This document shows, one piece after another, positions 40,445 to 61,687 of a DNA stretch of 64,000 nucleotides (position 1 is its first letter; the number at the start of each line of letters is the position of its first letter). Under the pieces are notes generated by a model that saw only the letters and a list, made by a program, of their open reading frames with translations, ran no database searches and was not told where the DNA came from. The stretch is taken from assembly GCF_009389715.1 (NCBI RefSeq), contig NC_052393.1, positions 1,860,001 to 1,924,000 on the forward strand, written 5' to 3'. Position numbers and translations under genes: made by a program. The DNA is from Phoenix dactylifera (Eukaryota > Streptophyta > Magnoliopsida > Arecales > Arecaceae).

Positions 40445-40668
40445 TGTAAGAACTCATACGGACATGCGTTTAGTCTCATATTGGTTATTTACTGGATAGA
40501 TTTTAGATATTTATATAGGATCAAAAAATCTAAATAATACATTCCAGCTAGCTTTTTGGATGAGGTCTGATTGTTACAAATAGTATCAGAACCGATCCGG
40601 CCCATAATCTATGCGAACTAGGCTACATTATAGCACGAATTTATTGAGTTGACCACGGATCGATTGTG
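40445..40668 (+). mobile_element. TRIM retrotransposon fragment: LTR plus primer-binding site
   Basis: A diverged copy of the 45775 TRIM. The LTR runs 40445-40578 (TGTAAGAACTC to TTGTTACA), followed by AATAGTATCAGAAC, a decayed initiator-tRNA primer-binding site. Internal sequence CGATCCGGCCCATAATCTA follows. The second LTR is missing. Confidence 0.8.
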
Positions 40669-40687
40669 AATAAAAAAAGAAAAAAAA

Positions 40688-40856: not shown

Positions 40857-41258
40857 AAAATTAACTTAATGGTATTTTGGTTTGAAATGTTGACAAATTA
40901 AAATCTTACAGAAAAATTATTTCCAAACTCAAAACTCCCTTTCATTAATATAGCATAAAACAAGATTAAATGAATTTCTTCCGATTTTTACAAATATGAT
41001 ATTATATTATAATATAATTATAGATTATATTATAATAAATTATTATATTATCATTGATAGCGTGTGTGAGAACGTGGATAAAGAAGACATGGACATCTTT
41101 AAGAGCATTGTCGGCTCCAAAGTTCAGCGTGAGAAGAACTTTGGTCACGTGCCCAATCCTAATTCGGCAACGTAAATATATGCTGCTCACAAGGGTATTT
41201 TCGCGAACCAACTACGCAGTACGAATCCATGCCCCATCTCTGCCGCTTCCCCCTTTTT

Positions 41259-42313
41259 GGGTGGTTCTATATACACCCCCCCTATTGCTAAGGACACCCC
41301 CCAAAAACCAAAAAAAAAATACCCAAACTGACCTTTAGTGTAATTACCATATTGCCCTTGAAATTTTCTCAGTACACCCCCCCTTCCTCCTCACTGCCGC
41401 CTCCTCCCCTCCCCCTCCTCCTCACTGCCGCCTCCTCCTCCTCCTCCTCCGCCTCCCCCATCACCCCTCCTCCTCCTCTTCCTCCCCCCCTCCCCCTGCG
41501 CCCGCTTCCTCCTCCTCCCCATCCCCCACCTCCCCGTCCTCCTCCTGCGCCTCCCCCCTCCTACCCCTCCTGATTCCCCGCCTCCCCCATCACCCCTCCC
41601 CCTCCTCCTCCTCCTCCCCATCCCCCACCTCCCCGTCCTCCTCCTCCGCCTCCTCCTCCTCCTCCTCCCCATCCCCCACCTCCCCGTCCTCCTCCTCCGC
41701 CTCCTCCTCCTCCTCCTCCGCCTCCCCCATCACCCCTCCGCCTCGTCTTCCTCCCCCCTCCCCCTGCGCCCGCTTCCTCCTCCTCCCCATCCCCCACCTC
41801 CCCGTCCTCCTTCCTCCTCCTCCCCATCCCCCACCTCCCCCCCCTCCTCCCCTCCACCTCCCCGTCCTCCTCCTCCGCCTCCCCCCTCCTCCTCCGCCAC
41901 CTCCTCTCACTCCTCTTCTCCCACCTCCCCGTCCTCCTTCCTCCTCCTCCCCATCCCCCACCTCCCCCTCCGCCTCCCCCCGCCTCCCCGTCCTCCTCCT
42001 CCGCCTCCCCCCTCCTCCTCCGCCGGCGAGGTGCTCGTTGCTCGGGAGATGGCCGGGGAGGTGCTTGAGGCGAGGTTTTTTGGGCGGAAGGGAGAAGCCG
42101 GCGGGTGTTTTGGAGGGGAAGAGCGGGGTGGGGGGGTTTGGGGGGTGTAGAGAGCAATTTAGGTGAGGGGGTGGGAAGGGTGGGGGGTAATTTAGGAATT
42201 TTTAATTTTTTAGGGGTGTCCTTAGCAAATGGGAGGGTGCAGAGAGTATTTAATTTTTTTTTAATTTTTGGGGGGTGTCCTGAGCAACAGGGGGGGTGTA
42301 TATAGAACCACCC
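41259..42313. mobile_element. Mutator-like TIR element with C-rich minisatellite, 1,055 bp
   Basis: Terminal inverted repeats of about 60 bp start GGGTGGTTCTATATACACCC at both ends and continue with GCTAAGGACACCCCCC (left) or GCTCAGGACACCCCCC (right, read on the - strand). Flanks carry a 9-bp direct repeat CCCCTTTTT (41250-41258 and 42314-42322), the length expected for Mutator-like elements, although its low complexity weakens the evidence. The right side has at least one more degenerate terminal copy (about 42208-42250). The interior 41390-42030 is a (CTCC)-type minisatellite with recurring CCCCATCCCCCACCTCCCCG. No transposase is present, so the element is non-autonomous. Confidence 0.75.
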
Positions 42314-42322
42314 CCCCTTTTT

Positions 42323-43298
42323 TTCCCCTTCACCCCCCTTCTTCCCCAAAACACCCCCCGGCCGGCCCCCTCTGCTTCGCTCGTCGACAGCCCTGAAACC
42401 CCCCAAGAATCGAAGTAGATCGAAGATTCTCTCGTCGATTCCATCGCCAATTCGGTCCTCGTAGGGTTTTAATCCATCGATCTCACTCTATTGCGGTTTA
42501 CCAATCCTTCTTGCACTTCTTGGAGCTCGATCTTGGATCTTCTCTCCTTGGGTGCTCTTGCCCCATCGGTATGGATTCGTTCTTCTTCTCAGCGCTATAA
42601 TTTGTTGTCATTTTCTGACAGGATGATGTTATTGTCCTGGTTGGGGGAGTGGATCGTAGCTGCAAGCTAGGGTCCATGCTTGCCTGAAAGATTTGCTGGG
42701 ATTTCCGGTCCTAAATTTCTGGATTTGTCCGGATTTGAGCTGGATTAGGTAGTGCCTTGTAGGAAAATGGAAGTTTGCTCTCGTAATGTATTTTGTGAGA
42801 CCGGGCTTGCTGGAATTTACACTCAGTTAGGGCCTGTTTTTCGCCTTTCTTTTCGTTCTGGCTGTGTTTCTTGCTGCAGAGCCCTGATTTTTCAGATAAT
42901 TATTTTGGATTTCGTGTTTCTTTTACCCACCCACTTCGCTGCTAGCTCAGTCTAGCATAGGCAATTGCATGGACAAGGAATATATTTAGATCTGATCGTA
43001 AATTTTCAACATAAAAATTATAATTGTATTTTTTGATGGGTAGATTAAAAGGCTATTTTTCCCCATTATGTTCAGGTCTAACTTGCTATCAGTTGTTAGA
43101 TACCAGATGATTGCCACTAATGGGTCCAAGTGTGGTAATGTTCTGATATAAGATGCCTTGGATGAATTGGGTTAGCTGTCATTATGCAATTACTGTTGAG
43201 ATAATGCGGTGATATGGCAGTTGTGCAATCTATTTTAGTGCACTTAATTGCTTGATTAGTTCATTCTGAGGAAAAAAAAGGATAGCTATAGTTGTTTC
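42323..43298 (+). promoter_or_regulatory. Leader, probable 5'-UTR intron and promoter of the MUSTANG-like gene
   Basis: C/T-rich leader-like DNA (CTTCTTCCCC, CTTCGCTCGTCGAC, CCATCGATCTC) follows the Mutator-like element. A donor CATCG|GTATGG at 42569 and an acceptor TCTGAG|GAAA at 43270 would remove a 5'-UTR intron of about 700 bp just before the ATG; an intron in the leader is inferred, not proven. No TATA box was found between the TIR end and the leader. Confidence 0.5.
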
Positions 43299-45080
43299 AT
43301 GGCTGGCCACTCATTAGCCCATCAGGATCATAATCTAGTTGTTCCAGACCATTCTCTTGTCATTGGCCAAGAGTTCCCAGATGTGGAAACCTGCAGAAGG
43401 ACACTTAAAGATATTGCTATTGCTTTACATTTTGATCTTCGGATAGTGAAATCTGATAGGAGCCGATTCATAGCCAAGTGCTCCAAGGAAGGATGCCCCT
43501 GGCGAGTTCATGTAGCAAAGTGTCCTGGTGTCCCTACTTTCTCAATCAGGACCTTGCATGGGGAGCATACATGTGAAGGAGTTCGCGGTCTTCATCACCA
43601 GCAAGCCACTGTGGGTTGGGTTGCCAGATCCGTGGAGGCCCGACTAAGAGATAATCCACAATACAAACCAAAGGAGATATTGCAAGATATCCGTGAACAG
43701 CATGGGGTTGCTGTGTCTTATATGCAAGCTTGGCGTGGGAAAGAGCGAAGCATGGCTGCAGTCCATGGCACTCTTGAGGATGGATATCGCCTTCTTCCAG
43801 CATACTGTGAACAAATAAAGAGAACAAATCCTGGGAGCATTGCATTAGTTTATGCAACCGGTCCAGAAAACTGCTTCCATCGTGTGTTTATTTCCTACCG
43901 TGCATCAATATATGGTTTTCTGCATGCTTGCCGGCCACTATTGGAACTTGATAGGGTACAACTTAAAGGAAAATACCTTGGAGGTTTGCTTTGTGCCTCA
44001 GCTGTTGATGCTGATGACACACTATATCCGCTGGCATTTGCTATTGTGGACACAGAGAGCGACGAAAATTGGATGTGGTTTCTATCAGAATTGCGAAAGC
44101 TCCTTGGAGTTAATACAGACAAGATGCCTGTATTAACAATTTTGTCCGAGAGACAGAATGGCATCGTAGAAGCAGTTGAAACCCATTTCCCCACTGCTTT
44201 TCATGGATTCTGCCTGCGTTATGTAAGCGAGAGCTTCCGTGATGAGTTCAAAAATTCAAAATTAGTCAACCTCTTTTGGAATGCTGTGTATGCTCTCACT
44301 GCAGCTGAATTTGAGGCAAAGGTAACTGAGATGATGGAAGTTCAAGATGTTATGCCTTGGTTCCGTCTTTTTCCACCTAACCTCTGGGCTGTTGCATACT
44401 TTGAGGGGGTACGTTATGGTCACTTCACTCTGGGAATCACGGAGATATTGTATACTTGGGCCCTTGATGGCCATGAACTTCCTATCGTGCAAATGATGGA
44501 ACACATACGCCATCAATTAACTGCTTGGTTTAATGATCGTCGCAATATGGGAATGTCATGTTCCTCAGTTCTTGTTCCCTCTGCTGAGAAGCTTATTTCA
44601 GAAGCTATTGCTGATTCACGTTGTTATCAAGTCCTCCGTGCAAATAAAGTGGAGTTTGAGATTGTATCATCTGAGAGAACAAATATTGTTGATATACAGA
44701 GCTGGTGTTGCTCATGTCGTCGGTGGCAAATCTATGGTATCCCATGTGCACACGCGGCTGCTGCACTTCTATCTTGTGGTGAAGATGTCCGGCTCTATGC
44801 TCAAGAGTGTTTCAGCATTAGGAAATACAGAGAAGCCTATTCACAAATGATATATCCCATTCCAGATAGAAATCTTTGGAAGGAATCAGGTGAGGGAACA
44901 GAAGGTGGAGGTAACAAAGCAGATATTATTGTACGCCCTCCTAAGACTCGTCGGCCACCTGGCCGCCCCAAAAAGAAGGTTCTTCGGATAGAAAGTTTAA
45001 AGCGCCCAAAGCGAGTTGTTCAATGCGGCCGATGTCATCTATTAGGGCATTCTCAAAAGAAATGTACATTGCAAATCTGA
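43299..45080 (+). CDS. MUSTANG-like domesticated Mutator transposase
   Basis: Uninterrupted 593-codon ORF. MuDR-type N-terminal DNA-binding region about 20-95 (Cys61/Cys66 and His90/Cys92 suggest a zinc site); MULE transposase domain about 215-310 (LKGKYLGGLLCASAVDADDT, FPTAFHGFC); SWIM zinc finger Cys471-x-Cys473 to Cys483-x-His485; AT-hook-like RRPPGRPKKK (551-560); CCHC knuckle Cys576-Cys579-His584-Cys589. This is the architecture of MUSTANG (MUG) proteins, Mutator transposases recruited as host genes that affect growth and flowering in Arabidopsis. There is no PB1 domain, so it fits the MUSTANG-A group. Of the acidic triad, Asp218 is retained, but the second Asp, in the usual SDRQ, is Glu284 (SERQ). 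No terminal inverted repeats bound the gene itself. FAR1-type proteins are more distant alternatives. Confidence 0.9.
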   Translation: MAGHSLAHQDHNLVVPDHSLVIGQEFPDVETCRRTLKDIAIALHFDLRIVKSDRSRFIAKCSKEGCPWRVHVAKCPGVPTFSIRTLHGEHTCEGVRGLHHQQATVGWVARSVEARLRDNPQYKPKEILQDIREQHGVAVSYMQAWRGKERSMAAVHGTLEDGYRLLPAYCEQIKRTNPGSIALVYATGPENCFHRVFISYRASIYGFLHACRPLLELDRVQLKGKYLGGLLCASAVDADDTLYPLAFAIVDTESDENWMWFLSELRKLLGVNTDKMPVLTILSERQNGIVEAVETHFPTAFHGFCLRYVSESFRDEFKNSKLVNLFWNAVYALTAAEFEAKVTEMMEVQDVMPWFRLFPPNLWAVAYFEGVRYGHFTLGITEILYTWALDGHELPIVQMMEHIRHQLTAWFNDRRNMGMSCSSVLVPSAEKLISEAIADSRCYQVLRANKVEFEIVSSERTNIVDIQSWCCSCRRWQIYGIPCAHAAAALLSCGEDVRLYAQECFSIRKYREAYSQMIYPIPDRNLWKESGEGTEGGGNKADIIVRPPKTRRPPGRPKKKVLRIESLKRPKRVVQCGRCHLLGHSQKKCTLQI

Positions 45081-45774: not shown

Positions 45775-46212
45775 TGTGAGAACCTGTGCAGGCGTGTGTT
45801 TAGTCCCACATCGGTTATTCGCTGGGTAGATCTTGGGTACTTATACAGGATCAAGGAACCCAAATAATAACTTCCGGCCAGCCATTTGGGTGAGGTCCTG
45901 GGTTGTTACTAATGGTATCAGAGCGGACCCGGCCCATAACTTACGTGGACTAGGGGACACTGCAGCATGGATCCATTGGGGCTGACCACGGGCCAATCGT
46001 GGTGTTTGTGATTAGATTTGAATAGATATAAACCCTTAGCTTGACGAGGACGTCAGGGCTTGAACGGGGGGAGTATGTGAGAACCTGTGCAGGCGTGTGT
46101 TTAGTCCCACATCGGTTATTCGCTGGGTAGATCTTGGGTACTTATACAGGATCAAGGAACCCAAATAATAACTTCCGGCTAGCCATTTTGGGTGAGATCC
46201 TGAGTTGTTACA
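45775..46212 (+). mobile_element. Complete TRIM (miniature LTR retrotransposon), 438 bp
   Basis: Two LTRs, 45775-45910 and 46076-46212 (136/137 bp, TGTGAGAACC to TTGTTAC[A/T]), differ by four substitutions and one indel. Between them are only 165 bp: a primer-binding site TGGTATCAGAGC (45913-45924, complementary to initiator tRNA-Met) and a polypurine tract GGGGGGAG just before the second LTR. GTCCCACATCGGTT is typical of plant TRIM LTRs. Flanks GATGG (45770-45774) and GATTG (46213-46217) are a 4/5-matching target duplication. It has no coding capacity and depends on other retroelements. No 5S rRNA-like segment is visible, so it is not Cassandra. Confidence 0.93.
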
Positions 46213-61548: not shown

Positions 61549-61687
61549 TGTGAGAACATGTGCGGGTATATGTTTAGTCCCAGATCGGCTGTATAATAGA
61601 CAAATCTTAAGTACTTATATGAGACCAAAAAACTTAAATAATATATTTTGACTAGTCTTTTTGGATGTAGGATCTTGGATTGTCACA
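61549..61687 (+). mobile_element. Solo LTR of the TRIM family
   Basis: TGTGAGAACATGTGCGGG to TTGTCACA, diverged from the LTRs at 45775 and 46076 but collinear over about 139 bp. There is no primer-binding site after it. Flanks CTTCA (61544-61548) and ATTCA (61688-61692) match at 4 of 5 positions, as expected for a solo LTR left by recombination. Confidence 0.8.

Follow-up and report, generated by a model that had tools for sequence, protein, structure and literature searches.

A Mutator-like element, probably of recent arrival, upstream of one of two duplicated MUSTANG genes in date palm

INTRODUCTION

In the date palm, Phoenix dactylifera, a Mutator-like element lies directly upstream of a gene domesticated from a Mutator transposase. 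The question raised by this locus is whether the two have anything to do with each other: the host protein could have affinity for the ends of the element, the element could supply promoter sequence to the gene, or it could have landed there as an ordinary insertion. We addressed this question in a window (the whole stretch of DNA analysed, 64,000 nt, C2:1860001-1924000) and in searches of the genome (773 Mb in 2391 contigs).

RESULTS AND DISCUSSION

Structure of the element

The 1055-bp segment at 41259..42313 (+ strand) represents a non-autonomous Mutator-like element, a shortened relative of a 7-kb autonomous element, as judged from its inverted ends, its identity to a copy on C7 and its absence at a duplicate gene. 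Its terminal inverted repeats, at 41259..41321 (left, + strand, with sequence common to other copies) and 42251..42313 (right, − strand), are 63 nt each and 92% complementary in arm comparison; they are long, as in other Mutator-like elements. They are flanked by an exact 9-bp direct repeat, CCCCTTTTT, a target site duplication at 41250..41258 (left) and 42314..42322 (right); being a low-complexity sequence, this repeat taken alone is weak evidence. A second, subterminal copy of the end motif is present on the right side (42199..42246, 81% identity to 42258-42305), while the interior at 41390..42024 is C+T-rich and of low complexity (limits set by eye). The 22-nt end motif, with up to three mismatches allowed, has two matches in the window, both being the element ends, and was found in 0 of 100 shuffles.

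The first-pass annotation, made from the letters of the window, was right about inverted repeats of ∼60 bp and about the 9-bp direct repeat; its assignment of the segment to non-autonomous Mutator-like elements is supported by the inverted ends as well as by copies and 9-bp duplications elsewhere in the genome.

Copies of the element in the genome

A search with the first 72 bases of the element gave 1205 candidates. Of these, 40 were scored, the window's own included, and all 40 matched at 100% over 71 or 72 bases; thus the first 71 bases are identical in 39 further scored copies. The 26-base end pattern (up to two mismatches) had 569 matches in the 773-Mb genome, with 0 matches for the reversed control. 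From 30 end loci, fetched with 3 kb each, 23 were two-ended, the window's locus included; the second end was beyond reach at L002, L006, L012, L014, L024 and L028, and L027 had an altered left end. An exact 9-bp target duplication was observed at 19 of the 23 two-ended loci, the four exceptions being L015 (10 bp), L021 (7 bp), L005 and L025 (none); exact 9-bp duplications were also present at a copy on C6 and at both completed autonomous copies described below. In 22 of the 23 loci the end motif is doubled at one end and single at the other; L015 has a single copy at each. Seven copies (L001, L009, L016, L019, L026, L029 and L030) had GC content of 0.62-0.66, the other 16 of 0.50-0.52.

The first-pass annotation had tied its reading to the existence of other copies with 9-bp duplications, to be sought with the terminal repeat. 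Such copies were found at 18 of the 22 loci other than the window's own, which, with the 569 matches, confirms a Mutator-like family. The family is high-copy, probably young, and may still be mobile. In the open-licence literature, searched by words rather than by comparison of sequences, we recognised no publication on this family.

It could be argued that C-rich low-complexity DNA gave rise to the ends and the repeat by chance, given that both the interior of the element and its duplication are of low complexity. Yet the end pattern is present hundreds of times versus none for the control, the exact duplications at other loci differ in sequence, and the site is empty at the duplicate gene; we regard this reading as having practically no probability. 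Chance origin of the ends as such is ruled out by the shuffles, the family-wide duplications and the genome-wide motif count.

Autonomous members and their transposase

Of the seven loci with no regular second end in reach, five (L002, L006, L014, L024 and L028) open into a transposase frame. Three single-ended copies were extended by 6 kb and two of them were completed, the third being C223. The completed copies, both autonomous members, are located at C7:9767773-9775120 (7348 bp) and C8:24355443-24362400 (6958 bp); the 22-nt end motif recurs in each, along with an exact 9-bp duplication (GAAACGAAT and CTCAATAGC, respectively). The transposase exon carries a MULE domain (PF10551, E-value 1.7e-27), so that a partner with the same ends possesses a MULE-domain transposase, as is characteristic of Mutator-like elements. 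The same exon has a FAR1 DNA-binding domain with a score barely above the threshold (29.4 bits versus a cut-off of 28.1). A frame downstream of the transposase holds the motif DGNCGFRA, and we take this frame to be OTU-like; it had no match in a Pfam search, and its similarity to solved structures was weak, with OTU domain-containing protein 5 in two rows (E-value 0.04) and RNA-dependent RNA polymerase as the label of a better row (0.009). On the strand opposite to the transposase there are two plant mobile domain frames (E-values 1.5e-55 and 1.4e-10).

The 394-aa transposase exon was found at 105 places with 97-100% identity (the best 105 of 410 candidates), and 98 of these 105 scored exons were stop-free. 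At least 13 of the 105 sit, in correct orientation, 734-834 bp inside one of 100 ends among the matches listed (pairs were picked by eye, distances computed). Judged from these sequences, the autonomous family is a candidate for current activity.

Comparison of the window element with the C7 copy showed 99% identity over the left 134 bp and 97% over the right 262 bp. As to a captured host gene fragment, the feature of Pack-MULEs, these ends match the autonomous element and the C+T-rich middle has no match in the autonomous pieces.

With non-autonomous derivatives of the MULE superfamily the element shares long inverted ends, the 9-bp target duplication and an autonomous partner with MULE-domain transposase; the date palm family differs in that, with its FAR1-type transposase, OTU-like frame and opposite-strand plant mobile domain, it was matched here to no named family. 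MULEs with captured plant mobile domains have been described from grasses and Amborella as fusions with the transposase (PMC5418596). The autonomous members in date palm also carry plant mobile domain frames, whereas here these are separate and on the opposite strand rather than fused as in the elements described in that source.

Insertion preference

To characterize insertion sites we took all 128 frames of at least 70 aa flanking 22 two-ended loci, with the window locus excluded, along with 150 of 151 random frames. Host-gene domains were matched in 3 of 128 flank frames versus 6 of 150 random frames; no preference for coding flanks was seen in this comparison. Retroelement domains were matched in 0 of 128 versus 9 of 150. 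The CpG ratio was 0.89 in 500-bp flanks versus 0.56 at random loci (p 0.009) and 0.75 versus 0.59 in 200-bp flanks (p 0.10), while GC content gave p 0.04 and 0.13 over two flank lengths (22 versus 20 loci, four tests in total, uncorrected). These mixed data weakly support the view that the family avoids methylated repeats. Enrichment of pyrimidine patches near insertion sites was borderline (p ∼0.05; the five random points drawn at each locus are not independent). No preference of the family for gene starts was demonstrated in the flank tests of 22 loci. In maize and rice, occupancy of Pack-MULEs is described as peaking immediately upstream of transcription starts, with maize Mu classed alongside (PMC7337890); the location of the window element would therefore be an ordinary one for such an element.

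The MUSTANG gene and its duplicate

The gene downstream of the element (43299..45080, + strand) is a MUSTANG gene by its domains: a single coding exon of 593 aa contains PF03108 (DBD_Tnp_Mut), PF10551 (MULE) and PF04434 (SWIM) within one open frame, an architecture that matches the one given for MUSTANG in PMC3435246. The inverted ends upstream of it form a separate unit with its own target duplication. A duplicate on C5 has 94% protein identity. The values for the pair (dN 0.03, dS 0.26, dN/dS 0.12) indicate that the gene is under constraint, i.e. under purifying selection as in MUSTANG-A genes; constraint and domain architecture together support the MUSTANG-like gene proposed at first pass. 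The gene probably belongs to subfamily A, the grouping being made by domains and identity: as in that subfamily of the MUSTANG (MUG) genes, whose definition also includes the lack of a PB1 exon, the three domains lie in one exon, and the dN/dS of 0.12 is the value reported for MUGA (PMC3435246). The difference is that one of two duplicates here has a transposon at its start region.

With a C16 gene as outgroup, protein changes since duplication numbered 11 in one copy and 11 in the other, 15 more being attributable to neither. No trace of an effect on the protein was thus seen, nor any sign of relaxed selection in the element-bearing copy. In the MULE domain of both duplicates, glutamate occupies what is presumably the place of the second catalytic aspartate; the protein is thus probably not active as a transposase.

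Directly downstream of the gene, the window segment 45775-46215 resembles a TRIM-type miniature retroelement: a single 35-nt LTR-like probe matches it at 45780 and again at 46081, with a sequence similar to a tRNA-Met primer site in between at 45914. A diverged match lies at 61554. Decayed sequence similar to this miniature retroelement was seen by eye at 40500-40680.

Empty site and age of the insertion

Upstream of the coding exon, the two duplicates can be aligned as far as 41257 (79% identity over 41158-41257), and the alignment resumes at 42361. At the junction the C5 duplicate has a single TTCCCCCTTTT, the element being absent from the same place. This empty site supports the element boundary and suggests that the insertion most likely postdates the duplication of the gene. 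Of the 22 copies compared with the element, L026 (4 differences in 403 positions) and L019 (5 in 407) are closest, as counted on aligned positions outside the repetitive middle with gaps set aside (23 of 24 copies were oriented for comparison). With an empty site and divergence of ∼1% from the nearest sampled copies, the insertion appears young; transposition of the window element is what the empty site and the near-identical copies point to. At plant substitution rates, the common ancestor of the nearest copies would be roughly one to two million years old, or younger.

We therefore consider the following account of identity, origin and recency to be highly probable. The element is non-autonomous and represents a shortened form within a Mutator-like family that is young and present in high copy number; intact 7-kb members presumably mobilised it in trans through their FAR1-type transposase. 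Its recent insertion into the start region of one of the two MUSTANG duplicates produced the 9-bp target duplication.

Possible effect on the promoter

Over 42361-43427, which takes in the conserved 5′ leader region (42361..43298, + strand), the gene and its duplicate are 73% identical, a conservation that supports the earlier suggestion that the leader begins about where the element ends; an intron at ∼42569-43075 (GT..AG, by eye) is likely. Upstream of the insertion, a block at 41166..41210 (+ strand), conserved at the duplicate gene and probably part of the promoter, contains AAATATAT at 41174-41181 and TTTTCGCGAA at 41198-41207, the latter being, as we assume, E2F-like. The insertion separates this block, which ends ∼50 bp before the element, from the conserved leader, now 1.06 kb away. 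In the gene-facing end, TATATAG reads outward at 42299-42305 and is followed by a pyrimidine-rich stretch. The proposal that the element supplies promoter sequence to the gene is therefore anatomically plausible. TATATA belongs to the family's end sequence; it does not indicate selection at the MUSTANG gene. As with other Mutator insertions located at transcription starts, the likely effect would be a shift of the probable promoter block away from the leader, while the gene-facing TATATAG end may provide a core promoter. Taken alone, such a promoter effect is possible, at somewhat less than an even chance.

The same young insertion could have had no effect on the gene if the start of transcription lies further down within the leader and signals from upstream act across 1 kb; this competes with the promoter part of the above account only. 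Conservation of the region from 42361 and continued constraint on the gene speak for it, the displacement of the conserved block against it, and we see it as a substantial minority possibility.

One could speculate further that the gene-adjacent end serves as a docking site for the FAR1-type transposase of the family, making the gene suppressible by transposase. In maize, hcf106-mum1 is one suppressible Mu allele. For the Mu1 allele a1-mum2, expression in adult tissue is described as occurring only without MuDR transposase, so that a Mu1 insertion can render a gene dependent on the transposase state (PMC2563033). As in these maize insertions at transcription starts, a Mutator element end adjoins a leader in date palm; the difference is that the maize allele of that source is defined by expression, the date palm case by sequence. 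The many open transposase exons (98 of 105 scored, from 410 candidates) would fit such docking, but the transposase copies may be silenced, and we judge it quite unlikely.

MUSTANG and the ends of the family

Affinity of the host protein for these ends, as put forward in the first-pass annotation, found no support: the family transposase is of FAR1 type (29 bits, cut-off 28), MUSTANG of MuDR type with DBD_Tnp_Mut. A WRKY-GCM1 domain is assigned to both MUSTANG and FHY3 in PMC3435246, and this common assignment makes the FAR1 and MuDR types kin, which leaves some room for affinity. MUSTANG as the family's own enzyme was set aside because autonomous members carry the FAR1-type domain. The nearest multi-copy relatives of MUSTANG, on C13 and C2, have 40% identity to it, and no such ends were found in the 9 kb taken at each, the right borders lying beyond. 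These two loci (L055, C13:4733501-4742500, and L056, C2:24620501-24629500) are 99.8% identical to each other over 6.6 kb and have tandem repeats near the left border, with no long inverted ends in the sequence taken.

A second case of co-occurrence was observed on C6, at a MUSTANG-A-like gene with 51% identity to the window's gene. A family copy of 879 bp (L042, C6:17630055-17630933, duplication AAGGTAAAT) sits there 1.93 kb before the start codon and is oriented opposite to the gene, with a pyrimidine-rich, leader-like stretch ∼100 bp beyond its end (by eye). Upstream of the C16 gene, the C155 gene and the C5 duplicate, no family end was found within 3.3, 3.4 and 5 kb, respectively, nor in ∼3 kb upstream of the match at seven further MUSTANG-like genes, the true starts of which may lie further up. 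Counted after the fact, a family copy is thus present upstream of two of the five genes that identity places in the MUSTANG-A-like group, and of two of all 12 MUSTANG-like genes.

If the MUSTANG protein bound these ends, the element would place the gene under self-regulation, an idea of the first-pass annotation. Retention of DBD_Tnp_Mut and SWIM, the two cases among five genes and the kinship of FAR1 and MuDR types described in PMC3435246 are in its favour; nevertheless, the family transposase has another type of DNA-binding domain, such ends were seen neither at the two nearest multi-copy relatives (within 9 kb each, short of the right borders) nor in ∼3 kb upstream of the seven further genes, and the C5 duplicate does without the insertion. 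We find it very unlikely. The account that we prefer, a recent insertion moved by the FAR1-type transposase, most likely leaves MUSTANG without a part in the mobility of the element.

For a gene set chosen after the data were seen, the chance that at least two of five genes have a copy within 3 kb upstream is 6e-5 (569 copies) to 3e-4 (1205 copies) under even spread, and 0.002 to 0.02 if every copy is upstream of some gene, with 28,000-40,000 genes assumed; for two of all 12 MUSTANG-like genes it is up to 0.10. The co-occurrence is intriguing: unlikely under even spread, it is not very unlikely under a strong promoter preference. It is very unlikely, in our estimate, that a possibly mobile MULE family repeatedly lands upstream of MUSTANG-A-like genes (two of five, in separate insertions and opposite orientation) and controls them by docking of its FAR1-type transposase on the ends; if true, this would be a live transposon regulating its domesticated relatives.

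Significance

What the locus offers is an apparently young insertion at one of two near-equal duplicates, with the untouched duplicate as an internal control. It has also brought to light a MULE family of high copy number that may still move and in which many transposase exons are open. If the element does alter expression of the MUSTANG gene, the locus would be a clean example of a transposon driving a domesticated transposase gene apart from its duplicate.
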